Positions 142 to 30,611 of a stretch of DNA of 50,264 bases are shown here, in pieces. The DNA is taken from NCBI RefSeq assembly GCF_944385615.1, contig NZ_CALWXV010000014.1:1-50264 (forward strand). The letters are read 5' to 3'. The position numbers and the translations under genes are program-made. The notes under the pieces are model-generated. The model was not told the DNA's origin. It made no database searches and saw only the letters and a program-made list of their open reading frames with translations. Each line of letters opens with the position of its first letter. The stretch's first letter is position 1. Origin of the DNA: an uncultured Flavonifractor sp. (GTDB taxonomy: Bacteria > Bacillota > Clostridia > Oscillospirales > Oscillospiraceae).

Positions 142-1053
142 ATGACTGAGCGAAAGGGTGGAGAAGGGTATTTGCAGGCAGCGGCTCTGCTGCCGCCCCA
201 TCTGCGGCGGCAGGCCCAACAGGTGGACAAGGCCAGTCAAGCCCGGGCAGAGGAGCTGCGCCTGCGGGCGGGTCGGCCCATGGCGGTGGTGTACCCGGAG
301 GGAGAGCAGTTTGTTTCGGGAGAGGCGCCGGTTTGTCCAAGGGATTTGGAACTGGTGTTGGAGATCGCCACCCAGGCCTCCGCACATACCGCCCTAGAGC
401 GGATGCGCAGCGGCTTTTTCACTATACGGGGCGGCCACCGTGTCGGTATCTGTGGCAGCGCGGTGATGAAGGATGGAGAGGTATACAATCTGCGGCAGCT
501 GTCCTCTCTGGCCATCCGTATCGCCCGGCAGGTGCTGGGAGCGGCCGCTCCGGTGGTGGACAGGCTGTGGGCAGGACGGAGATTTCAGAGCACACTCATT
601 CTATCCCCGCCGGGAGGAGGAAAGACCACCTTGCTGCGGGATCTGATCCGGCGGCTAGCGGATGGGGAGGGCCATCCGCCCCTGCGGGTAGGGGTGGCGG
701 ATGAACGGGGGGAATTGGCGGCTATGTGGAACGGCGAACCCCAGCTGGATGTGGGCCGGCAGACCGATGTAATGGATGGCTGTCCGAAGGGAACAGGGCT
801 TCTGATGCTGTTGAGAGGCATGAACCCGCAGGTGTTGGCCGCTGATGAGATTACCGCCCCAGAGGACTGTGCCGCACTGTTAATGGCAGCCAACTGTGGG
901 GTAAGTCTGGTGTGTACTGCCCACGCCGCCAATCTGGACGACCTCCAAACCCGGCCTTTGTACAAGCCTCTGTTGGAAAATCGGTGTTTTCAGAAGTTGG
1001 TGGTGCTTGCCCGACAGGGAGACCAGCGGGTCTGCCAGGTAAGTGAGCTGTGA
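142..1053 (+). CDS. spoIIIAA: SpoIIIAA, stage III sporulation ATPase
   Basis: 303-residue cytoplasmic secretion-type ATPase of the SpoIIIA-SpoIIQ channel joining mother cell and forespore. A Walker A loop GGGKTT is seen near residues 158-163, followed by the DERGELA segment typical of SpoIIIAA. The family resembles type II/IV secretion ATPases. I chose the ATG at 142 because GAAGGA lies about 9 bases before it; a longer in-frame opening from 94 has no ribosome binding site and adds a non-conserved leader. It is the first of eight contiguous spoIIIA genes, and the stop overlaps the GTG start of spoIIIAB by 4 bases, suggesting translational coupling. Confidence 0.95.
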   Translation: MTERKGGEGYLQAAALLPPHLRRQAQQVDKASQARAEELRLRAGRPMAVVYPEGEQFVSGEAPVCPRDLELVLEIATQASAHTALERMRSGFFTIRGGHRVGICGSAVMKDGEVYNLRQLSSLAIRIARQVLGAAAPVVDRLWAGRRFQSTLILSPPGGGKTTLLRDLIRRLADGEGHPPLRVGVADERGELAAMWNGEPQLDVGRQTDVMDGCPKGTGLLMLLRGMNPQVLAADEITAPEDCAALLMAANCGVSLVCTAHAANLDDLQTRPLYKPLLENRCFQKLVVLARQGDQRVCQVSEL

Positions 1054-1562
1054 TCCGTCTGATGGGGGCTCTGCTGACGGCGGGGGGTGGAGCCTTTTTG
1101 GGATTTGCTGCCGCGGGACGGCTGACCCGCCGGGCCAGGGTGCTGAGGCAGCTGGCGGGCGCTTTGGAGCAAATGGACCGGGAGATCTCCTTCCGGCTCA
1201 CTCCAATGCCTCAGGTAATGGAGCGGCTTGGCGTGGAGTATCCTCCGCCGGTGGGAGTGCTTTTTTCCCACTGTTGCCTGGGCTTTGACGAGCTGGGGGG
1301 GCGGTCCCTGGCGGAGATCTGGAGGACCGCCCTGACAGAGAGCGATTTGGACCTGGAGGACCGGGAAATCGCGGTTTTGGACGAGCTGGGGGAGGTGCTG
1401 GGCCGGTTCGAGGAGTCTGGCCTTCGGACCGCTCTGGCCCGGGCGGCGGAAGAACTGAGCCAGGCGGCGGAGCTGGCCCGGATGGAGGCTGAAAAACGGG
1501 GCAGGATGTACCGGGTGCTGGGACTAGCCGTAGGCGGGCTGCTGGTCATTCTGCTGCTGTGA
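1050..1562 (+). CDS. spoIIIAB: SpoIIIAB, stage III sporulation protein
   Basis: 170 residues, the usual family length. It has a hydrophobic N-terminal segment (about residues 5-25), a soluble, largely helical acidic/basic middle, and a C-terminal membrane segment ending in VGGLLVILLL. That layout matches SpoIIIAB, which has a fold like type II secretion GspF domains. The start is GTG at 1050, overlapping the spoIIIAA stop as GTGA. It acts in the mother-cell membrane as part of the feeding-tube channel required for sigma-G activity. spoIIIAC follows after 13 bases. Confidence 0.93.
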   Translation: MIRLMGALLTAGGGAFLGFAAAGRLTRRARVLRQLAGALEQMDREISFRLTPMPQVMERLGVEYPPPVGVLFSHCCLGFDELGGRSLAEIWRTALTESDLDLEDREIAVLDELGEVLGRFEESGLRTALARAAEELSQAAELARMEAEKRGRMYRVLGLAVGGLLVILLL

Positions 1563-1575
1563 AGGAGCGAAGAAT

Positions 1576-1770
1576 ATGGATGTAGATCTGATCTTCAAAA
1601 TCGCCGCCATCGGAATTCTGGTGTCGGTGCTCAATCAGGTGCTCTCCCGGTCCGGCCGGGACGAGCAGGCCACCATGACCACCCTGGCGGGGCTGGTGGT
1701 GGTACTCATGATGGTGGTCCAACAGATCAGCAGCTTGTTTACGCTGGTCAAGGACCTCTTCGGGCTGTAG
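1576..1770 (+). CDS. spoIIIAC: SpoIIIAC, small membrane protein
   Basis: 64 residues with two hydrophobic segments (about 6-22 and 36-58), starting MDVDLIFKIAAIGI as is typical of SpoIIIAC. AAGGAG at 1562-1567 sits 8 bases before the ATG. The spoIIIAD start lies 2 bases after the stop. Family role: an integral component of the SpoIIIA channel in the outer forespore membrane. Confidence 0.95.
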   Translation: MDVDLIFKIAAIGILVSVLNQVLSRSGRDEQATMTTLAGLVVVLMMVVQQISSLFTLVKDLFGL

Positions 1771-1772
1771 CC

Positions 1773-2159
1773 ATGGAAACCATGCTGAAGGTGGGAGCGG
1801 TGGCGGTGATCGCTGCCCTGTGCGCCGTGATGATCAAGGGCACCGCCCGGCAGCTGGCTCTGGTACTGTCTCTTACTGCTGCCGCCATGATTTTGACGCT
1901 GGCCTTTGGGTCAGTAGAGGATGTGGTGGCCATGGCGGAGGACCTGAGAGATATGGCGGGCCTGTCCCCGGCAGTAGTGGCTCCCGTCATCAAAACAGTG
2001 GGTATCGCCATCCTTACGCACATTGCCGCCCAGGTATGTAAGGACGCGGGGGAGGGAGGGATTGCCGCTGTCACGGAAACTGCCGGCTCCGCTCTGGCCT
2101 TGTGTACCGCCCTGCCCCTGCTGAGGGCGGTACTGGATACAGTGGCGGCCCTGCTGTGA
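1773..2159 (+). CDS. spoIIIAD: SpoIIIAD, membrane protein
   Basis: 128 residues, the standard family length, with about four hydrophobic segments. The N-terminal part resembles SpoIIIAC, as known for this pair. The APVIKTVGIAILTHIAAQVCKDAGE stretch (described, not full) around residues 70-95 is characteristic. It is a channel component and is probably translated by ribosomes continuing from spoIIIAC, since only 2 bases separate them. A 45-base gap with a fresh Shine-Dalgarno precedes spoIIIAE. Confidence 0.94.
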   Translation: METMLKVGAVAVIAALCAVMIKGTARQLALVLSLTAAAMILTLAFGSVEDVVAMAEDLRDMAGLSPAVVAPVIKTVGIAILTHIAAQVCKDAGEGGIAAVTETAGSALALCTALPLLRAVLDTVAALL

Positions 2160-2204
2160 GCCTGTGTTGCTTGGAAATCTGCCACAAAAGAGGAGGGAAG
2201 GACC

Positions 2205-3299
2205 ATGATGCGGCGGCTGGCTATGTTGGCAGTGCTGTTAGTGGTACTGACGGGTACAGCCTGGGCCAGCGAAAGCGTGCTGGATGCCCAGTCAGAGGCT
2301 TTGGGACTGGAGGCGCTGGAGGATGCCGGGGCAGAGTGGATGCCAGATGTGGACCTGAATGCCGGGTTGGACCTGGATCAGAGCATCGGCCAGCTCTTGG
2401 ACACCGGTAATGCACAGCTGGGCGGCGTGCTTCGTAAAGCCCTGCGCAGCGGCGCCCTGCTGCTGGCGGTGGTGCTCTTCTGCTCTTTGACTGAGGGAAT
2501 GGGAGCGGGGCAGGGGCCGGTAAACGCGGTGGCCCTGGTAGGAGCACTGGCAGTAACGGCGGTGGCGGCGGCTGACGCCAATTCTCTCATCGGTATGGGG
2601 CGGGAGGCCATCGACCACATGGAGAGCTTCTCCAAGCTACTGCTTCCGGCGGTGACAGCGGCGGCCTCCGCTGCTGGAACCCCCGGCGGGGCAGTGGCCC
2701 GGCAGCTGGCCACCATGCTCTTCTCAGATCTGCTCATTACCCTCATTAACCGGGTGTTGCTGCCTCTGGTATATACCTATATCGCTGCCTGTGTGGCTTG
2801 GGCAGCGGTGGGCAACGAAGGGCTTAAGCGAATGGCCGCCACATTGAAATGGGCGGTGACCACCGTGCTCACTGCAGTGCTCATTCTCTTTGTGACATAC
2901 CTCACCATCAGTGGGGTCATCGCGGGCACCACCGACGCCCTTACCGTCAAAGCCGCCAAGTTTACCATGTCCAGTATGGTGCCTGTGGTGGGAGGTATCC
3001 TGTCTGATGCGGCGGAAACAGTGCTGGCGGGGGCTGGCATTTTGAAGAACACAGTGGGGATCTTTGGGATGCTGGTGGTGATTGGCATCTGTCTGGTTCC
3101 CTTTCTCCAGCTGGGGTTCCACTATCTGACCTATAAGGTGGCCTCCGCGCTCAGCGCTACCCTGTCGGGCAGCCGGGTAGCAGCCCTCATCGACCAAATC
3201 AGCGGAGCCTTTGGTCTGGTGCTGGGGATGACCGGGGCCTGTGCGCTTTTGCTGCTCATCTCCATGGTAGCCGCTGTGTCGGCGGCAGGGGGAGGCTGA
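2205..3299 (+). CDS. spoIIIAE: SpoIIIAE, polytopic membrane protein
   Basis: 364 residues with a cleavable-looking signal peptide (basic start, hydrophobic to about residue 20, then TAWASE), an acidic linker, and six or more membrane segments ending near the C-terminus. This matches the SpoIIIAE family, the largest membrane subunit of the SpoIIIA complex. AGGAGG at 2191-2196 gives good spacing to the ATG at 2205; a second ATG follows directly at 2208. Only 2 bases separate its stop from spoIIIAF. Confidence 0.95.
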   Translation: MMRRLAMLAVLLVVLTGTAWASESVLDAQSEALGLEALEDAGAEWMPDVDLNAGLDLDQSIGQLLDTGNAQLGGVLRKALRSGALLLAVVLFCSLTEGMGAGQGPVNAVALVGALAVTAVAAADANSLIGMGREAIDHMESFSKLLLPAVTAAASAAGTPGGAVARQLATMLFSDLLITLINRVLLPLVYTYIAACVAWAAVGNEGLKRMAATLKWAVTTVLTAVLILFVTYLTISGVIAGTTDALTVKAAKFTMSSMVPVVGGILSDAAETVLAGAGILKNTVGIFGMLVVIGICLVPFLQLGFHYLTYKVASALSATLSGSRVAALIDQISGAFGLVLGMTGACALLLLISMVAAVSAAGGG

Positions 3300-3301
3300 A
3301 T

Positions 3302-3793
3302 ATGGTTGAATTTCTGGGAAAGTGGCTTATGGGGGTGACCTGCGCGGCGCTGATTTTGGCATTGGCGGAAGGACTTTCCCCGGAGGGGGGACCTAAGCGG
3401 GCGGCACGGCTGGCGGGAGGGCTGCTTCTGCTGTTGGCGGTGGTCAAGCCTCTGTTGGAGTTGGATGGCAGCGCCCTCACCCAGGCCATGACGGAATACC
3501 GCCTGGACGCAGAGATCTCTGCCCAGGCGCTGGAAGGGGAGAACAAAACCCTGATGAAGGACATCATAGAAACCCAGTCTGCCGCATATATTCAGGACAA
3601 GGCGGCAGCGCTGGGCATCTCCTGCCAGGTGCGGGTGGAGGCTGACGAGGCGGTGGATTATCCAGTTCCAAAGGTGGTCACCGTCACAGGATCGCTCTCC
3701 CGTGAACAACGGCGGAAGCTGACGGAACAGATTGAAGCTGACTTTGCCATTCCGGCAGATCGGCAGTATTACGAAAGCGGGGGAGTGGAATGA
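3302..3793 (+). CDS. spoIIIAF: SpoIIIAF, stage III sporulation protein
   Basis: 163 residues with two N-terminal hydrophobic segments (about 4-22 and 33-50) and a soluble C-terminal domain facing the intermembrane space. In the family this domain has a ring-building fold also found in SpoIIIAG and SpoIIIAH. The start at 3302 follows a GGGGGAGG sequence. The stop overlaps the spoIIIAG start as ATGA, so translation is likely coupled. Confidence 0.92.
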   Translation: MVEFLGKWLMGVTCAALILALAEGLSPEGGPKRAARLAGGLLLLLAVVKPLLELDGSALTQAMTEYRLDAEISAQALEGENKTLMKDIIETQSAAYIQDKAAALGISCQVRVEADEAVDYPVPKVVTVTGSLSREQRRKLTEQIEADFAIPADRQYYESGGVE

Positions 3794-4335
3794 GCGCTGG
3801 GAAACCGGAAAAGGGCAGTCCCCTGGCCCTGTGGAAAGAACGGCTGACCGAGCTGTTCCACCGGTATCAATATGCGCTGCTGGTGGTAGCGGCAGGGGTG
3901 GTTCTGATGGTCCTGCCCGCCTTGGGCGGAGAGTCCAAGGCGGAGGAGCCCCAGCAGGAAAGCGTCCAGGAGGTGGAATTTGGAACGGAGGAGCTGGAGG
4001 GACGGCTGGAGGAGGCCCTGTCCCAGATGGATGGGGTGGGTGAGGCAAAGGTGGTGCTCACGCTGCGCAGCGGCCCCAGCCAGGTGCTGGCGCAGGACAT
4101 CCAGCGGTCGATTGGGGAGGATCAGAGCCAGTCCACTCAGTCCACGGTGGTGATCTCCCAGGGGTCGGGCAGCGAGGAGGCGGTGGTCCTTCAACAGCTT
4201 TCGCCCCAATATCAAGGCGCACTTGTGGTATGCTCCGGCGGAGATGACCCCGCAGTGCGCCTGCGGGTGGTAGAGGCGGTAGCCGCCCTCACCGGGTTGG
4301 GGGCCGACAAGATCTCAGTATCAAAAGGAAAGTGA
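3790..4335 (+). CDS. spoIIIAG: SpoIIIAG, ring-forming channel protein
   Basis: 181 residues: a basic cytoplasmic N-terminus, one membrane segment (about residues 28-45), then a Gln/Glu-rich linker and the C-terminal ring-building domain (about 60-181). In Bacillus SpoIIIAG forms a large ring between the two membranes during engulfment. The coding region overlaps the spoIIIAF stop by 4 bases and precedes spoIIIAH by 12 bases. Confidence 0.93.
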   Translation: MSAGKPEKGSPLALWKERLTELFHRYQYALLVVAAGVVLMVLPALGGESKAEEPQQESVQEVEFGTEELEGRLEEALSQMDGVGEAKVVLTLRSGPSQVLAQDIQRSIGEDQSQSTQSTVVISQGSGSEEAVVLQQLSPQYQGALVVCSGGDDPAVRLRVVEAVAALTGLGADKISVSKGK

Positions 4336-21958: not shown

Positions 21959-22990
21959 ATGGACCACAATGACTATAAACTGACCGCTCCAGAGCTGCTG
22001 CGCAACTTCCTGGTCTATCATGAGACCATCCAGGGCCACTCCAAGAAAACTGTGGATGAATACTATCTGGACCTGCGCAATTTCTTCCGCTACATCAAGA
22101 TCGAAAAAGGCCGGGTACCCCGCACCGCCGAGCTGGACCAGATCGATATCGACGATCTGGATTTGGATCTGGCCAAGTCCGTTACCCTCAGCGATGTGTA
22201 CAGCTACATGAGTTACCTTAGCCGGGATCGAGTCAAGCACGCCAACAGCCCCACCTCCGGCTACGGCCTGGAGCCCACCGCCCGTGCCCGGAAAATCGCC
22301 GCAATCCGTTCTTTTTATAAGTATCTGTCCAGCAAAGCGAAGCTCATCAGCGAAAATCCTATGCAGGATCTGGATTCTCCCCGACTGAAAAAGTCTTTGC
22401 CACGGTATCTGTCCCTGGATGAGTCCATCCAGCTGCTGGAGGCCGTGGACGAGCCCAACCGGGCCAGGGATTACTGTATTTTGAGCCTGTTCCTCAACTG
22501 CGGGTTGCGGATTTCTGAGTTAGTTGGACTTAACTTAACGGATGTCCGGGAGGAACAGTTGAGGGTGCTGGGTAAGGGCAATAAGGAACGGATGATCTTC
22601 CTCAATGAGGCCTGCCGGGATGCTCTGGACGACTGGCTGACTGAACGGAACAACCAGGCGGCGGCAGATAAAAACGCCCTTTTTCTCACCCGTTCCCATA
22701 CCAGAATGACCACGGCGGCGGTCCACTATATGGTCAAGCAGCGGCTTTTAAAGGCGGGACTGGACCCAGCTCTCTACTCAAGCCACAAGCTGCGCCACAC
22801 CGCTGCTACCCTGATGCTGCAAAACGGCGTGGATGTACGTACTCTTCAGGAGGTGCTTGGCCACGAGAACCTGAACACCACCCAAATTTACACCCACGTG
22901 GATAATGAAAATCTCCGGGCGGCAGCCCGGGCCAATCCTTTGGGTAAGGTGCGGAAAAAGAGCAAAAAATCCAATGATGAAGATGTGTAA
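21959..22990 (+). CDS. Tyrosine recombinase (XerC/XerD-like integrase)
   Basis: 343 residues. An N-terminal SAM-like core-binding domain (about 10-115) precedes the catalytic domain with GLRISELVGL (first Arg), HKLRHTAATLM (HxxR), LGHENLNTTQIYTHV (His and nucleophile Tyr). It is longer than the canonical XerD encoded at 29733-30611, with extra residues in the N-terminal domain (about 55-75). AGGAGG lies at 21941-21946. No integrated element is visible beside it, so it is either the organism's second chromosome-dimer recombinase (XerC/CodV role) or a recombinase acting on the repeats in its own leader. Confidence 0.9.
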   Translation: MDHNDYKLTAPELLRNFLVYHETIQGHSKKTVDEYYLDLRNFFRYIKIEKGRVPRTAELDQIDIDDLDLDLAKSVTLSDVYSYMSYLSRDRVKHANSPTSGYGLEPTARARKIAAIRSFYKYLSSKAKLISENPMQDLDSPRLKKSLPRYLSLDESIQLLEAVDEPNRARDYCILSLFLNCGLRISELVGLNLTDVREEQLRVLGKGNKERMIFLNEACRDALDDWLTERNNQAAADKNALFLTRSHTRMTTAAVHYMVKQRLLKAGLDPALYSSHKLRHTAATLMLQNGVDVRTLQEVLGHENLNTTQIYTHVDNENLRAAARANPLGKVRKKSKKSNDEDV

Positions 22991-23041: not shown

Positions 23042-23782
23042 TTACTTATTTGCCAGGGCAGACAGCTCGTTCAGTGTCACCTGATAGGCCCGCCGGGCGT
23101 GGGTGAGCCATTGAGGCTCCTCGGTGGGAATTGGCAGCGCCTCCCCCCTGTTATTCAGGATGGTTTCTGCTATCCAAGCCAGGAAGGCGGGGTTCTTTAC
23201 CAACACCGGCCCAGTGATGTGGGTGCCGATCACATGATTGAGGTAAAATCCTTCGGCCCCTCTCTCCTGCTCATTTCCCATACCCATGGTCATGGCTGAG
23301 CAAAGAGGGTTGTCCACTCCGGCGGTACAGGAGCACTTGTTCATAAAGCCCACCACCGGCTGGGAAAACAGGGGTGTTTGGGCGATGATATCGTGGGGCA
23401 CCCTCTTGTCGGTCTCCACGGTAGTAAACTGCCCAAAGCCCAAGCCCTCATGCACTGTCCCCTTCTGATCGGTGATAGATTCCCCCAGCAGTTCCATGGC
23501 ATTGCCGGTGAAAAATACCAGCCCACCCTTATCGGCGGCCTTTTTCAGGGCTTCTTTGCAGGGAGACAGCCAGGATAGAGCTGCCTTTTGGATACGTTCT
23601 GCGCCTGCCCCCATATAGATGAGGTCTGCCCCGGTAAAATCGGGGGTATCGTCACAGCCAACGGCCCGAATTTCCACCTCCGCCCCACGCCAGGTCAGAT
23701 AACGGGAGAGTAAGGTGAGATTGGCGTATTCCCCATAGAGGCTCATTGCCTCCGGGTAGAGATGCAGCAACGTGATTTTCAT
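23042..23782 (-). CDS. gatD: GatD-like glutamine amidotransferase lacking the usual Cys motif
   Basis: 246 residues of the CobB/CobQ-like class I amidotransferase family that pairs with MurT: LLHLYPEAMSLYGEYAN start, GFGQFTTVETDKRV in the middle, GTHITGPVLVKNP holding the likely catalytic His188. With MurT, GatD amidates the glutamate of lipid II to isoglutamine. Where GatD normally has a CGG motif, this protein reads FFTGNAMELLG (residues 90-100) with no Cys. Cysteines occur instead at 150, 152 and 161. Either the nucleophile has moved, or the protein no longer hydrolyses glutamine. It lies 12 bases after murT in one operon. Confidence 0.82.
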   Translation of the reverse strand: MKITLLHLYPEAMSLYGEYANLTLLSRYLTWRGAEVEIRAVGCDDTPDFTGADLIYMGAGAERIQKAALSWLSPCKEALKKAADKGGLVFFTGNAMELLGESITDQKGTVHEGLGFGQFTTVETDKRVPHDIIAQTPLFSQPVVGFMNKCSCTAGVDNPLCSAMTMGMGNEQERGAEGFYLNHVIGTHITGPVLVKNPAFLAWIAETILNNRGEALPIPTEEPQWLTHARRAYQVTLNELSALANK

Positions 23783-23794
23783 GGCGGCCCCTCC

Positions 23795-25123
23795 TTATTC
23801 CGTCCGCTGGACTTTACTCAGCAGCTTGTCCCGGTCTGAGAAACAGGTGACCACATACAGGTCCTCTTCCCCGTTCCCCGCCAGCAGTTCCACTGCCTGA
23901 GCCACAGTGTCCAGACAAGTGATCTTCTCCTGGGGTACCGCCGAGCAGTCAAAGCGCAGGGCCAGGTCGTTGACATACTTGCCACACAGTATCACACGCT
24001 GGACATGAGGGGCGCTGAGCTGGTCAAAGTCAATGTCCCACAGCCAGCTGGTTTCGCCAGTGAAGTATTTGCGGCTGATGGCATCCACGATAACCAGTAC
24101 CGAGCAGGGTTTTCCTGTGTCCTTGATGTACCGCAGATTGGTGTCATAGGCCACCGAGTTCTCATGCTTGCTGGTAAGCAGAGTGCCATGGTGTTTCCCC
24201 AGAGTGAAGGTGACCATCCGGCCGTTTTTCAGGATGTAGCTGCCCAGTACCTGTGCAATGGTCCCCTTGTCCACCCCGCACAGCCGGCACAGAGACCAGG
24301 CTGCCAGGATGTTGTATACGTTGTAGATACTGCGGAAGCTGAGGGCAAGTTCGGTATCCCCGTCCAGTACCAGCCGTCCATCCTTTAGATCCAGACCTGT
24401 TGCGGCAAAATCGGGGGTGTGCCGGTGGTGGCCGCAGACAGTACAGCGGTAGTGTCCAATGTGGTTATAGTGATACAGGGTATATTCCATCTTCCCCTTA
24501 CACACCGGGCATCGGGCGCCGTCATCATAGATCCCATGGTGCTCTTTTGTGGCCCCATCCCAAGCCTCCAGGCCAAACCACTTTACTTTGTCGTGGCCCT
24601 GAGCAAAGCAGGACACCAGAGGGTCGTCAGCGTTAAGCACCAGGGTGGTATCCGGGTGGATGGCGGGCAGAATGGCGTCATACACCCACTCCGGGTGGCC
24701 GTTGCGGGTGAGTTGGTCCCGGTAGAGGTTGGTGATGACGAAATGGGTGGGGTGAAACCGCTGGAAGCTGTAGCGGGCATACCGCTCGTCGCTCTCCAGC
24801 AGCAATACGTCCCCCTTCATCTTTCCTCCCAGAGTGCAGTGGGTGAGGATGAGGGTGGTGACTCCCTCGATCTGGTTGGAGCCCTCGGCGTTGTACACCA
24901 CATCTTTCCCAGCGGCCTGAAGAACGGAGGCAATCATTTCCACGGTGGAGGTCTTGCCGTTGGAGCCAGTAACAGCGATGACATAGCTGGGTAGCTTTAC
25001 CCGGCCCAGCACGTCGGGACAGAGTTTCAGGGCAAACTGGCCGGGAAGACTGCTTCCCTTACCCAGAAGCTTGCCCGCGAAGCGCAGCAGCTTACACAAA
25101 ACAATGGCCAGAGCCATTCGCAT
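23795..25123 (-). CDS. murT: MurT-like Mur ligase (lipid II isoglutaminyl synthase subunit)
   Basis: 442 residues. Mur ligase central domain with ATP loop VTGSNGKTSTVEM (about residues 51-63), a zinc ribbon inserted at CPVC...CTVCG (about 203-229), and the C-terminal DUF1727 region with HENSVAYDTNLRYI and VDAISRKYFTGETSWLWDI. MurT-GatD amidates D-Glu in the stem peptide of lipid II, affecting crosslinking and lysozyme resistance. The ATG at 25123 has AAGGAG 10 bases upstream. It is transcribed before gatD. Confidence 0.93.
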   Translation of the reverse strand: MRMALAIVLCKLLRFAGKLLGKGSSLPGQFALKLCPDVLGRVKLPSYVIAVTGSNGKTSTVEMIASVLQAAGKDVVYNAEGSNQIEGVTTLILTHCTLGGKMKGDVLLLESDERYARYSFQRFHPTHFVITNLYRDQLTRNGHPEWVYDAILPAIHPDTTLVLNADDPLVSCFAQGHDKVKWFGLEAWDGATKEHHGIYDDGARCPVCKGKMEYTLYHYNHIGHYRCTVCGHHRHTPDFAATGLDLKDGRLVLDGDTELALSFRSIYNVYNILAAWSLCRLCGVDKGTIAQVLGSYILKNGRMVTFTLGKHHGTLLTSKHENSVAYDTNLRYIKDTGKPCSVLVIVDAISRKYFTGETSWLWDIDFDQLSAPHVQRVILCGKYVNDLALRFDCSAVPQEKITCLDTVAQAVELLAGNGEEDLYVVTCFSDRDKLLSKVQRTE

Positions 25124-25245: not shown

Positions 25246-26031
25246 TTAATTTAGTTCCAGTGCAAACAGCGCAGCACCCAGAGCGCCGTTGAGCTGGGCC
25301 TGGTCGGACACGAGCAGTTCTACCCCCAGCTCCCGCTGGATAGCCTCCACCACACCACGGTTCTTGGACACTCCACCCGTCATCATATAGTTGGGCTCAC
25401 CTCCCAACCGGCGGCACAGGGCGGCGGTGCGGGCGGCAACCGACTGATTCAGGCCGTGGATGATATCCCCCCGGCTCTTGTTCTGAGCAATAAGGGATAC
25501 CACCTCCGACTCGGCAAAGACGGTACACATGGAGGAGATGACGATCTCCTCCTTCCACTCCAAGCCGATCTGGCTCATCTCCTCCATGGACAGCTCCAAG
25601 GTACGGGCCATCAGCTCCAGAAACCGACCGGTACCGGCGGCACATTTGTCATTCATCAGGAAGTTGACCACATTCCCCTCCCCATCCAGCCGGATGACCT
25701 TGCTGTCCTGGCCGCCAATGTCGATAATGGTACGCACGCTGGGGTCCAGAAAGTAGGCCCCTTTGGCGTGGCAGGTGATTTCAGTGATGGACTTGTCCCC
25801 CTGCTGGATAGCGGTGCGGCCATAGCCGGTGGTGACAGTAGCGGCAATGTCCTCCCGGCGCAGTCCTGCCTGAGTCAGGGCCTGTTCCAGAGCCCGCTCC
25901 GCACCCGCCGAGGCCCCCGCCCCGGTGGGCAGGATCACTCCGGCCACCAGGTTTTTGTCCCGATCCAAAATGGCCACATCTGTACTGGTGGAGCCGCTGT
26001 CAATGCCCACATAATACCGTCCGCTGCTCAT
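25246..26031 (-). CDS. Internal in-frame start giving a stand-alone activator (alternative product)
   Basis: From the ATG at 26031-26029 the frame encodes 261 residues starting MSSGRYYVGIDSGSTS, almost exactly the length of free HgdC (260). AAGGAG at 26045-26040 is 8 bases before it. I infer that ribosomes may make both the 550-residue fusion and this shorter protein. Confidence 0.55.
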   Translation of the reverse strand: MSSGRYYVGIDSGSTSTDVAILDRDKNLVAGVILPTGAGASAGAERALEQALTQAGLRREDIAATVTTGYGRTAIQQGDKSITEITCHAKGAYFLDPSVRTIIDIGGQDSKVIRLDGEGNVVNFLMNDKCAAGTGRFLELMARTLELSMEEMSQIGLEWKEEIVISSMCTVFAESEVVSLIAQNKSRGDIIHGLNQSVAARTAALCRRLGGEPNYMMTGGVSKNRGVVEAIQRELGVELLVSDQAQLNGALGAALFALELN

Positions 26032-26898
26032 GTTCCTCTCTCCTTTTCTCTGGCTGGGCTGTGCCGGAGCCATAGTCTCGGCAAAGGCCTCCAGCCTGGT
26101 TGACAGCTGGCCGCTGCTCCCCGCTGTGTAATCCGACTCAAGCTTGAGCATGGGCACACTTAGCTCGTGCCGCAGCTTGGAGTACTCAAAACCGTAGTAA
26201 TCGCAGAATTTTACCGTGTGGTATACCACCCCCTTCAGATGAGGGTCGTTGACCAGCTGCCGCCGCCCAGCGGCATCAGTCATACGCATACAGGGGGTCT
26301 GTTCCAGCAGAGCTCCAGCATACCAGTCCATCAGGGCGTCAAAATCACCCTTCTCCGGCGGCTGGGCCACGCTGCGGTTGTGGACACAGGTGTCATTACG
26401 CACCGGCAGGGGCAGGGACTCGGCCATTGTCTGAAAGAGCTTGTCTCCCACCCGGCCACCCAGTACGCTGAGGTAGGGCTGGCTGGGCTGCTCCATGGGA
26501 ACAAAGGCAGACCGGAAGACTTGTGGATCAAAGGCGGCTCCTTTGTAGGCCCCGTAGGCCTCCGCCAGTCGAAGCAGTTCCCCCTTCATCCGTTGCCGGG
26601 CGCACTGGTCCCCACAGTGGAGCAGGTCCATAAGAAAGAGAAAGTCCAGTTTTCCGTGTTCTTCCAGAATATCGTACACACTGCGGATTACATCGCAGCA
26701 GTTGACCAGCACCAGCTCCTTCACCTGCCCTGACAGGCAAGCCTCCAGCACCGCCTTGCCAAAGCCGCACAGGTTGGGATGTCCCAGCTGGTCGCTGAGA
26801 GGAAAGCCGTCAGGCATCTGGTCCAGTACGGCGCAGTTCCCTCCCAGAGCGGCCAGCAGCTCTACCGGCGTGTATTTGCAGATATAATGAGTGGTCAT
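25246..26898 (-). CDS. Fused 2-hydroxyacyl-CoA dehydratase subunit and activator ATPase
   Basis: 550 residues. Residues 1-289 match the C-terminal part of HgdB/BcrB-type dehydratase subunits (LVLVNCCDVIRSVYD, YHTVKFCDYYGFEYSKL, ESDYTAGSSGQLSTRLEAF). Residues 290-550 match the HgdC/BadF-type activator: GIDSGSTSTDVAILD, IIDIGGQDSK, and NDKCAAGTG and SSMCTVF with cysteines 39 apart, the spacing of the two [4Fe-4S] ligands in HgdC. The activator reduces the dehydratase in an ATP-driven one-electron step. At the join the RNA reads AAAAGGAGAGAGG-AAC-ATG, a full Shine-Dalgarno with in-frame start. The 5' end overlaps the preceding gene as ATGA. Confidence 0.88.
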   Translation of the reverse strand: MTTHYICKYTPVELLAALGGNCAVLDQMPDGFPLSDQLGHPNLCGFGKAVLEACLSGQVKELVLVNCCDVIRSVYDILEEHGKLDFLFLMDLLHCGDQCARQRMKGELLRLAEAYGAYKGAAFDPQVFRSAFVPMEQPSQPYLSVLGGRVGDKLFQTMAESLPLPVRNDTCVHNRSVAQPPEKGDFDALMDWYAGALLEQTPCMRMTDAAGRRQLVNDPHLKGVVYHTVKFCDYYGFEYSKLRHELSVPMLKLESDYTAGSSGQLSTRLEAFAETMAPAQPSQRKGERNMSSGRYYVGIDSGSTSTDVAILDRDKNLVAGVILPTGAGASAGAERALEQALTQAGLRREDIAATVTTGYGRTAIQQGDKSITEITCHAKGAYFLDPSVRTIIDIGGQDSKVIRLDGEGNVVNFLMNDKCAAGTGRFLELMARTLELSMEEMSQIGLEWKEEIVISSMCTVFAESEVVSLIAQNKSRGDIIHGLNQSVAARTAALCRRLGGEPNYMMTGGVSKNRGVVEAIQRELGVELLVSDQAQLNGALGAALFALELN

Positions 26899-28178
26899 AG
26901 GGCCTTTTCCCCCTTCTCCTGTTTCAGCATCTCCACAAAGGCCTCCATTCGGGTGGCCAGCTGGCCCTCGCCGCCATGGCTGCGGTCACACCCATCCCCG
27001 TCCAGTACCAGACAGGGAATCTCAGACGCCTCAAAGCGTTCTTTGGCCAGCTGTGCACCTCCCAAGGTGTGTTTGCACCCCCAGTGACAGAACCACACCG
27101 CGCCGTCGGCTTTCACCTGCCGGGCAGCCTGGATACCCTTGTCGATGCGGCGGGACACTGGACCATTGAAGGCGGAGTACACCACACGCTGGGCCATAGC
27201 CTGGAATGGGTCCTCTGAAAAGGTGGGCTGGATACCCTCAAAGCACATATCACACCCAACCAGCTGTACCGCCCGGTTAAAATCGGTGACCTGCCGCAGG
27301 GGGGCTACCCAGAATGGGGTGGTGTGATGCCACAGTAGCCGCACCCCCTCCGCTGTCGGGGCCTGCTGGGCGTCCTTCAGGCATTGGAGGGTGAAGGCCT
27401 CTGTCTCCGGGGTACCCAGCAGGATATGGAGGGCAAAGGCGGCGAACATCTCCCCTGTCATCTCCCCAATGAGCAGCTTGTCTGCCCGCTGGGTCAGAAA
27501 GCGGTCGTAGTTGGCAAGACTGCGATTGCTCCGGGCCACCGTCTCCTCCAGTGCAGACAGGCTCAGTTTCTGGCCGGTCTGCTTCTCCAGAAAAGCCGTC
27601 ATGTCCTTGAGCTGGCCAGCTACATAGTCTACAGCCCCCTGGTCGGTGCGGTAGGGCACGTCGATCATGAAGTGGGGCACATCAAAATACTCCGCCAACC
27701 GACGGAAAGTAAGCATATTGGCATCACATGCCAGAGTGGTGCTGAGGATAAACCGTGGCTTGGGCATCAGCTTCTTTTCCGCCGCCCCAATAAAAATTTT
27801 GTGGTAGGAGCAGAAAGTCTCAGGCAGACCCTCGCTCTCGGCATAACGGAGGAAGGTCCCCTCTGCCTGGGTACCGGAGAGGAAGCAGCCAAACCCCTCA
27901 CAGGAATAAGGGAATAACCCAAGTACCTGTAGCGGCTCGCAGGGCAAAAACAGACTGACCATGGCGGCCTTATCCGGGTGGGCCAGAGGGGCAATCATAG
28001 AGTCCATGGTCTGGACCGCAGCCATCTGGGCCGAGCGGGTCATCCCCCTGCCAGGGGCGAAGCGCAACTGCATTTTTTTGGCCCGGTAGCCGGTGGTGAG
28101 CCACTGTCGGGCCTTTTCCGGGTCCTTGTCACAAAGTGTCTGAATCCACGCACCAAAGGATGTTACAATGTCTTTCAT
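26895..28178 (-). CDS. 2-hydroxyacyl-CoA dehydratase family subunit
   Basis: 427 residues of the HgdA/HgdB D-component family (PF06050-like). It contains SLFLPCEPLQVLGLFPYSCEGFG (described in part) near the N-terminus, STTLACDAN in the middle, and a C-terminal FCHWGCKHTLGGAQ and DGDGCD..GGEGQLATRMEAF typical of these FeS proteins. Such enzymes remove water from 2-hydroxyacyl-CoA through a ketyl radical. ATG 28178 is chosen because GTGAGG lies just before it; the in-frame GTG at 28190 overlaps that sequence. No CoA transferase or dehydrogenase is adjacent, so the substrate cannot be assigned. Confidence 0.87.
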   Translation of the reverse strand: MKDIVTSFGAWIQTLCDKDPEKARQWLTTGYRAKKMQLRFAPGRGMTRSAQMAAVQTMDSMIAPLAHPDKAAMVSLFLPCEPLQVLGLFPYSCEGFGCFLSGTQAEGTFLRYAESEGLPETFCSYHKIFIGAAEKKLMPKPRFILSTTLACDANMLTFRRLAEYFDVPHFMIDVPYRTDQGAVDYVAGQLKDMTAFLEKQTGQKLSLSALEETVARSNRSLANYDRFLTQRADKLLIGEMTGEMFAAFALHILLGTPETEAFTLQCLKDAQQAPTAEGVRLLWHHTTPFWVAPLRQVTDFNRAVQLVGCDMCFEGIQPTFSEDPFQAMAQRVVYSAFNGPVSRRIDKGIQAARQVKADGAVWFCHWGCKHTLGGAQLAKERFEASEIPCLVLDGDGCDRSHGGEGQLATRMEAFVEMLKQEKGEKAL

Positions 28179-28197
28179 GGGAAACCTCACTTTTTAC

Positions 28198-29732: not shown

Positions 29733-30611
29733 TTACGCTCTTGGGTGAGCCTTGTTGTATACGTCCTTTAGTTTTTGACTGACCAACTGGGTATAGATCT
29801 GGGTGGAGGAAATGTCGGCATGGCCCAACATTTCCTGGATGGAGTGGAGATCGGCACCGTTTTCCAACAGATGGGTGGCAAAGGAGTGGCGCAGGGTGTG
29901 AGGAGTGATATCCTTTTGAATCCCCGCTTTCTCCTGATAGTGTTTGATGATCTTCCAGAAGCCCTGGCGGCTCATACGCTCCCCGCTCATGTTGACAAAC
30001 AGCGCTTTTTCATCGGGATGTTCCACCATCTGAGGACGCACCCGCTCCACATAGTACTGCAATACCCGTACAGCGGTCTGGTATAAAGGTATGACCCGCT
30101 CTTTCCCGCGGCTGACACAGCGGACAAAGCCAGTGGAAAGATTTAAATTGTCCAGGTTCAGCCCAATCAATTCACTGACCCGGATGCCTGTGGCATAGAG
30201 CAGCTCCAACATGGCTTTATCCCGAGAGCCTTTGCTATCAGAGGGGTCGGGCTGCTCCAAGAAGAGTTCTACTTCCCGGGAGGTGAGAATGTGGGGCAAC
30301 TTACGTTCCACTTTAGTTTGGGGGAGTCCACGGGCCGGGTTTTCCCGCACTTGGCCGATCTCCATGAGCCAGGTATAAAAGGATTTGAGAGAGGCTTGGC
30401 TCCGTGTAACGGTGGCGGCCGATTTTCCGTGAGCCATCATATTGCTGGTGTAGGCCTCCACATCGGCGTGGGAGGCCTGTACCGGCGAAAGGCCCGCCTC
30501 TCCCAGCCAGCCCAAATACTGACGCACATCCCGCAGATAGGAACTGAGTGTGTTGGGAGATGCCCGCTTTTCTTCCATTAAAAATCGTTCATAGCCATTC
30601 AGATACTCCAT
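29733..30611 (-). CDS. xerD: Tyrosine recombinase XerD
   Basis: 292 residues, the canonical XerD length. The N-terminal domain opens MEYLNGYERFLMEEKRAS; the catalytic domain shows ATGIRVSELIGL (first Arg), TPHTLRHSFATHLLENGADL (HxxR) and LGHADISSTQIYTQL (His and Tyr). XerD and its partner resolve chromosome dimers at dif. It lies 29 bases after spoIIM on the same strand, as in the Bacillus spoIIM-fur-ripX region, here without fur. Confidence 0.94.
   Translation of the reverse strand: MEYLNGYERFLMEEKRASPNTLSSYLRDVRQYLGWLGEAGLSPVQASHADVEAYTSNMMAHGKSAATVTRSQASLKSFYTWLMEIGQVRENPARGLPQTKVERKLPHILTSREVELFLEQPDPSDSKGSRDKAMLELLYATGIRVSELIGLNLDNLNLSTGFVRCVSRGKERVIPLYQTAVRVLQYYVERVRPQMVEHPDEKALFVNMSGERMSRQGFWKIIKHYQEKAGIQKDITPHTLRHSFATHLLENGADLHSIQEMLGHADISSTQIYTQLVSQKLKDVYNKAHPRA

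Follow-up and report, generated by a model that had tools for sequence, protein, structure and literature searches.

An HgdC-type activase fused to a probable double-cubane subunit in gut clostridia, with a conserved internal start that probably also yields free activase

Organization of the fused gene

A single gene of an uncultured Flavonifractor sp. joins in one open frame an HGD-D subunit, predicted to be of the double-cubane type, and an HgdC-type activase, and probably gives rise to two products, the fused protein and a free activase that starts at an internal ATG. At the border of the two domains, a Shine-Dalgarno (SD) sequence and a start codon are both conserved. The gene is situated on the minus strand of a stretch of 50,264 bp (the window) and is identified by its open frame and by Pfam and NCBIfam matches. 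From position 26898 to 25246 it passes through 550 codons without a stop, such that the transition from an HGD-D subunit into an HgdC-type activator, proposed in an earlier sequence-only reading, is borne out.

The N-terminal HGD-D subunit comprises residues 1-280 (26059-26898, minus strand) with invariant or near-invariant Cys7, 44, 67, 68, 171, 203 and 232; the PF06050 (HGD-D) match covers residues 153-276 and a second stretch. The linker (residues 279-289; 26032-26064, minus strand) is predicted to be disordered and is strongly variable in the window's clade. The activase part (261 aa; 25246-26031, minus strand) exhibits the cluster-ligand motifs CAAGTGRFLE and CTVFAESEV and was assigned by fold alignment to HgdC and HadI, with the BcrAD_BadFG and TIGR00241 matches contained within residues 296-546. 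In the AlphaFold2 model (58 aligned sequences; pLDDT 91.9) only residues 279-287 fall below 50. The predicted activase part superimposes on HadI, MbdQ and HgdC with rmsd values of 1.3-1.6 over about 255 columns, and the predicted fold reaches TM-scores of 0.54-0.61, depending on the target, against DCCP and BzdN.

Concerning the join, the codons on the minus strand read AGA AAA GGA GAG AGG AAC ATG. The final ATG (Met290; 26029-26031, minus strand) is the proposed start of the free activase, and 8 nt ahead of it, in frame, is the SD-like motif AAAAGGAG (26040-26047, minus strand) with a duplex energy of -8.9 kcal/mol. The description of the join as a former intergenic SD plus ATG holds insofar as SD and start are kept inside the fusion; a small correction concerns the codon AAC, which stands between AGG and ATG. 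From Met290 to the C-terminus there are 261 residues, compared to 259-276 in the HgdC and HadI chains in the PDB, so the part after this Met does have the length of a free HgdC.

Directly upstream, a partner HGD-D subunit of 431 aa, recognised by Pfam (26895-28190, minus strand), ends with a stop that overlaps the ATG of the fused gene (ATGA). Immediately upstream of this operon follows, on the same strand, a DNA/RNA non-specific endonuclease (PF13930; 28247-29155), whose N-terminus resembles a signal peptide as judged by eye, and just downstream of the fused gene, also on its strand, a MurT-like ligase and a GATase_3 gene form a pair (23042-25123). Two genes of the phage-integrase family (tyrosine recombinases; 21959-22990 and 29733-30611) flank the stretch. 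Elsewhere in the window's genome, the only other activase-family protein found is one of 984 residues with two activase domains and DUF2229 (1121-4072 of locus L182).

Affiliation of the encoded enzyme

Both subunits clearly belong to the HGD-D superfamily, with PF06050 scores of 113 bits for the fused gene and 208 bits for the partner (cut-off 28.4), and the fused gene scores 258.8 bits with TIGR00241 (cut-off 125.4). In the fold alignment the activase part is 46% identical to HgdC (1hux) and 48% to HadI (4eht). Cys419 and Cys458, the two cysteines per monomer expected to ligate the bridging [4Fe-4S] cluster, are invariant in 58 rows and conserved in comparison with both structures.

In the N-terminal part, Cys7, 44, 68, 171, 203 and 232 each reach a conservation of 98% or more over 123 rows. 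All six align with the cysteines of DCCP, whereas in BzdN five match exactly and the sixth is a few residues off; the six cysteines of BzdN are described as ligands of an [8Fe-9S] double-cubane cluster (PMC11971306). This pattern is that of double-cubane subunits (BzdN/DCCP), and the earlier designation as a dehydratase subunit is therefore unproven and amounts to the name of the superfamily. In the partner, Cys127, 155 and 372 (conservation 0.99-1.00 in 117 rows) are situated opposite Cys95, Cys128 (with a shift of one alignment position) and Cys380 of BzdO, and Asn158 occupies the place of the catalytic His131 of BzdO. The HadC and HadB equivalog models, which are specific to 2-hydroxyisocaproyl-CoA dehydratase, give 23.5 bits for the fused gene (cut-off 700) and 64.4 for the partner (cut-off 750), and the double-cubane equivalog NF040772 gives 63.8 bits (cut-off 350). 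Among six neighbouring ORFs scanned, no CoA-transferase was found.

Because of the cysteine matches, the Asn in place of His131 and the equivalog scores far below their cut-offs, the pair is predicted to form a BzdNO/DCCP-like heterodimer, with reductase activity more probable than dehydratase activity. The fused subunit probably binds a double-cubane cluster, the cluster types being those which we infer from sequence. In dehydratases, the beta subunit is reported to receive the electron of the activase (PMC11574389) and is described as BzdN-like (PMC11971306). By analogy, the subunit to which the activase is fused here is of the kind (BzdN-like) that receives the activase electron in dehydratases.

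Distribution and age of the fusion

A set of 182 loci was compiled from a scan of genome contigs (best 80 of 418) and from genome searches. After removal of 38 loci without the N-terminal part in front, of 14 identical duplicates and, by hand, of L182, there remained 129 distinct loci with both parts side by side; the two-domain tree contains 123 rows, six short rows having been excluded. The join is open in one frame in 128 of the 129 distinct loci. A sequencing error or a chance loss of a stop codon is ruled out by this number, although two of the 128 loci (L066 and L131) show breaks elsewhere in the gene. Among 57 fully aligned fused relatives, identity to the window's gene ranges from 40 to 88%.

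Of the genomes searched at E <= 1e-100, 19 of 20 from the genus, 39 of 400 from the family, 12 of 345 from the order and 35 of 250 from family f52 contained matches; at the level of the class, 10 of 391 genomes did so at E <= 1e-80. Named carriers of the fusion include Flavonifractor, Blautia, Roseburia porci and Peptococcaceae MAGs. With this spread of relatives a recent fusion is ruled out, and the fresh loss of a stop codon, as previously suggested, is not borne out, since the fusion is common to 128 of 129 loci and to aligned relatives of such divergence. Judged from these comparisons, the fusion is old and common in many gut clostridia. Upstream, 126 of the 129 loci encode a homologue of the partner on the same strand (the remaining three have less than 700 nt of sequence there), and a TGA overlaps the fused gene's nearest start codon in 97 of the 129.

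Two unfused loci illustrate other arrangements. In Lutispora (L108), the activase is read in a frame different from that of the subunit gene before it, whose 3' end is overlapped by the activase ATG and SD; in Paenibacillus (L093) the activase is preceded by an intergenic SD. Both fit a fusion of adjacent genes in which the start region of the activase was carried inside. In the Lutispora locus (827-3774), two HGD-D subunits are apparently fused together, and the activase is a separate, overlapping gene. In Desulfacinum (L084, 2840-3915), the C-terminal 72 residues of a partner-like subunit stand at the beginning of the activase frame, owing either to a separate fusion event with the other subunit or to a frameshift in the sequence record.

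The comparison of orthologues for a stop ahead of the ATG, recommended in the sequence-only reading, thus finds the frame open across the join in 128 of 129 loci, and in L074 stops lie between the two parts. In this locus (3880-4060; one MAG of the long-linker clade) two stops terminate the subunit frame, and after about 50 nt come an SD and the activase ATG; this could be a natural split or an assembly error.

Conservation of the internal start

Internal starts were picked without regard to the SD, as the nearest ATG, or else GTG, 3-12 codons ahead of the activase domain (GID). By this rule, 100 of the 129 loci possess an internal start. The rule misses the TTG with a strong SD in L122 and the ATG at 13 codons in L063, both of which are counted as start-less, and in L169 it selects an ATG at a distance of 10 codons in place of the GTG of the clade's start column. 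On the tree, 90 of the 123 rows combine a start with an SD <= -5, a state that requires 11 changes, compared to a mean of 29 after shuffling.

The site is kept in three clades, to which we refer by labels of our own: in 42 of 44 loci of Flavo (the window's clade), in 19 of 21 of Blautia, where one further locus has TTG, and in 24 of 26 of Lachno4. Over these clades the start column holds ATG in 78, GTG in 7 and TTG in one of 91 loci, i.e., a start codon in 86, with none in five; because of one-residue length differences, either of two adjacent columns was accepted in two clades, with preference ATG > GTG > TTG. The Val residues in this column are always encoded by GTG (7/7), for which the product of the genes' own GTG shares is 0.0026. 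In Lachno4 the start column has an entropy of 0.89 bits (Met 21, Val 3, Thr 2), compared to 1.8-3.5 bits in the eleven preceding columns. In Flavo the preceding columns reach 1.8-3.3 bits, and the start is split over two columns by a one-residue length difference. The Blautia column is uninformative, because the linker itself is conserved there. The distance from start to domain differs among the clades (4, 7-8 or 9-10 codons), and in all three the profile of SD energies peaks 10-16 nt ahead of the start.

The linker between the motifs FxE and GID measures 18-89 residues (median 23, n=128). Among 44 representatives below 70% identity, 19 carry the site and 25 lack it by the rule of the analysis. 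Start-less fusions of another clade are also found in two species of the window's own genus (G013 and G017). Fusions that lack the start, as in 25 of the 44 representatives, show that the fused protein can be enough by itself.

Shine-Dalgarno strength and local mRNA structure

An SD of -6 or stronger precedes 85% of the 100 blindly picked internal starts, 88% of 121 own starts of the same genes (the own start being the start codon nearest to the N-terminal part) and 17% of 2175 other in-frame ATGs, with medians of -8.6, -9.8 and -3.2, respectively. For the window's SD duplex of -8.9 kcal/mol, a synonymous-codon null gives p = 0.24; amino-acid composition by itself provides a null mean of -6.4. 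Across loci the SD beats the synonymous mean in 91 of 100, with p below 0.05 for single loci in just 12 and above 0.5 in 10. Among the 44 representatives below 70% identity there are 21 with a start, each of which has an SD stronger than the synonymous mean (Fisher p 0.0013); when the codon order of these representatives is shuffled, Fisher p is 1.4e-6, with 7 of 21 individually below 0.05. The window site taken alone is thus only modestly beyond chance, and across relatives the signal is clearly beyond it. The best SD anywhere in the linker has a median of -6.1 in start-less and of -8.5 in start-bearing representatives (p 0.0006), although strong SD-like stretches exist in L024, L072, L122 and L179 despite their start-less call.

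The mRNA around the internal start is also comparatively open. The local folding energy over 60 nt amounts to -8.3 for internal starts, compared to -9.1 for own starts and -14.9 for other ATGs, and the internal start is more open than the controls of its own gene in 93 of 99 loci and likewise in 20 of the 21 representatives; in the window the values are -5.3 and -17.5. In SD strength and in openness of the local mRNA, internal starts resemble real gene starts and not other in-frame ATGs.

Of the remaining Met columns that are widely shared, none has more than 21% of its loci at -6 or stronger, apart from the pair Met505/506 (55% and 36%). The ATG of Met505 in the window has an SD-like sequence of -13.6, stronger than that of Met290, and 55% of the 116 relatives having this ATG also reach -6; this sequence is probably a by-product of a Gly-rich motif.

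Two products and their possible assembly

The best reading of the conserved start with its SD, the open mRNA and the arrangement in Lutispora is that one mRNA yields both a fused and a free activator, as had been surmised from the window itself; we consider this likely with good confidence. Initiation at 26898, within the ATGA overlap, would produce the 550-residue protein, a double-cubane-type, electron-accepting subunit and an ATP-driven activase tethered by a flexible linker of roughly 20 residues. A second initiation at Met290, directed by the SD within the linker, would produce the free activase of 261 residues. As there is no stop between the parts, each copy of the subunit carries an activase, and the internal start can consequently only add activase. 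The split arrangement of L074, in which SD and ATG are kept behind the stops, fits a mechanism with two products, a match that is suggestive only.

Activases of dehydratases are described as homodimers with one bridging cluster (PMC11574389). By analogy, a free protomer may pair with a tethered one to form one activase dimer with one bridging [4Fe-4S] cluster, and one such mixed dimer would serve one heterodimer of partner and subunit, as in the heterotetrameric benzoyl-CoA reductases. A complex of fused protein only would contain one activase dimer for every two catalytic units, and the free protomer would permit a ratio of one to one. We put forward the mixed dimer tentatively. With the same reserve, the internal start might be regarded as a built-in stoichiometry device that provides an asymmetric activase dimer for each double-cubane heterodimer, in a covalently wired, ATP-driven low-potential reductase of two genes that is widespread in gut clostridia; the start-less lineages would then use a 2:2 assembly. 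It had been objected that an activator must dissociate after each electron transfer, which would make a tether unusual. This does not apply generally, since benzoyl-CoA reductases of the BCR and MBR types are reported to be permanent heterotetramers (PMC11971306); for the BZD type, the same source expects the modules to associate just transiently. In classical dehydratases, one activation is reported to last for thousands of turnovers (PMC11574389).

As a variant among the readings with two products, competing with the mixed dimer, the free activase might be the working donor and act catalytically in trans like HgdC, the fused copy being tolerated or serving to recruit it. Classical dehydratases are served by free activators (PMC11574389), and L074 appears split. 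However, start-less fusions likewise show no variation in the two cluster cysteines or in the nucleotide motifs, such that the tethered domain stays under selection, and the fusion is retained across families. We consider a donor in trans rather unlikely.

Alternatively, the fused protein might be the sole product, with SD and ATG persisting from a formerly separate activase gene because the linker, rich in Gly, Lys, Glu and Arg, is purine-rich by coincidence. This is consistent with the 25 representatives fused without the site, with the window site not being significant on its own, and with the mean of -6.4 that amino-acid composition alone provides. It does not account for a start column that is conserved amid a strongly variable linker in two clades and that deviates over three clades almost solely to GTG and TTG, nor for correct SD spacing in clades with differing start positions, for SDs that beat both the synonymous and the codon-order null, or for the open mRNA; a relic would be expected to decay over such divergence. 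It thus appears improbable. That the extra activase is destined for another enzyme of the cell is very improbable: Genomes may hold further activase-dependent proteins, and that of the window encodes the 984-residue DUF2229/BcrAD protein, but the latter has two activase domains of its own and no second HGD-D protein was found there.

In the window's genome (90% complete), neither a separate HgdC-type activase nor another HGD-D protein was found. Complementation, i.e., that start-less genomes keep a separate activase, was rejected as there is no association: 12 of 20 start-less genomes and 9 of 18 with the site have one, counted by eye as open frames of length below 350 among the matches listed.

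In the closest solved systems, ATP-driven electron activators are separate proteins or separate subunits. Here, the activator is joined to the subunit that is expected to accept its electrons, and many lineages keep a start site for a free copy. The stoichiometry of activator and enzyme is testable by the change of a single start codon. Furthermore, annotations of this gene with 550-600 residues may conceal a second product, and the gene flags an uncharacterised, low-potential enzyme, probably of the double-cubane type, in common gut bacteria (Flavonifractor, Blautia).

Comparison with known systems

A literature search, a weak test confined to open-licence papers with mostly off-topic matches, found no report of this fusion or of its internal start. 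The organization is similar to that of class I benzoyl-CoA reductases (BzdNOPQ, BCR/MBR), which likewise consist of two HGD-D subunits and an activase dimer. At the cluster cysteines the N-terminal part corresponds to BzdN and the partner to BzdO. Despite this similarity there are differences: The activase is fused to the BzdN-like subunit here, unlike in BzdNOPQ, the gap between Cys68 and Cys171 is about 60 residues shorter than in BzdN, and His131 of BzdO corresponds to Asn158 in the partner.

DCCP with its reductase DCCP-R (6eno, 7yyl) provides the best sequence match of the N-terminal part, with six aligned cysteines and a related activase. DCCP is, however, described as homodimeric with a separate reductase (PMC11971306), whereas a second, distinct subunit and a fused reductase are found here. 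The 2-hydroxyacyl-CoA dehydratases with HgdC or HadI belong to the same superfamily, and their activases are 46-48% identical to the one studied here. They differ by the additional cysteines of the fused subunit here and by its weak HadC score, and their activator is a separate protein that acts catalytically.

Concerning the internal start, in-frame starts from which a C-terminal product is made that can co-assemble with the full-length form in a set ratio are described for the full-length and short forms of SpaO (PMC13059759) and for two-polypeptide endolysins (PMC9430671); these proteins are unrelated, and the second product is experimentally shown there, whereas it is predicted here. Similarly, an internal methionine within cas8b is reported to give rise to a separate small protein, Cas11b, without which fewer complexes are formed (PMC11899642), in this case in an archaeal CRISPR system of unrelated proteins.
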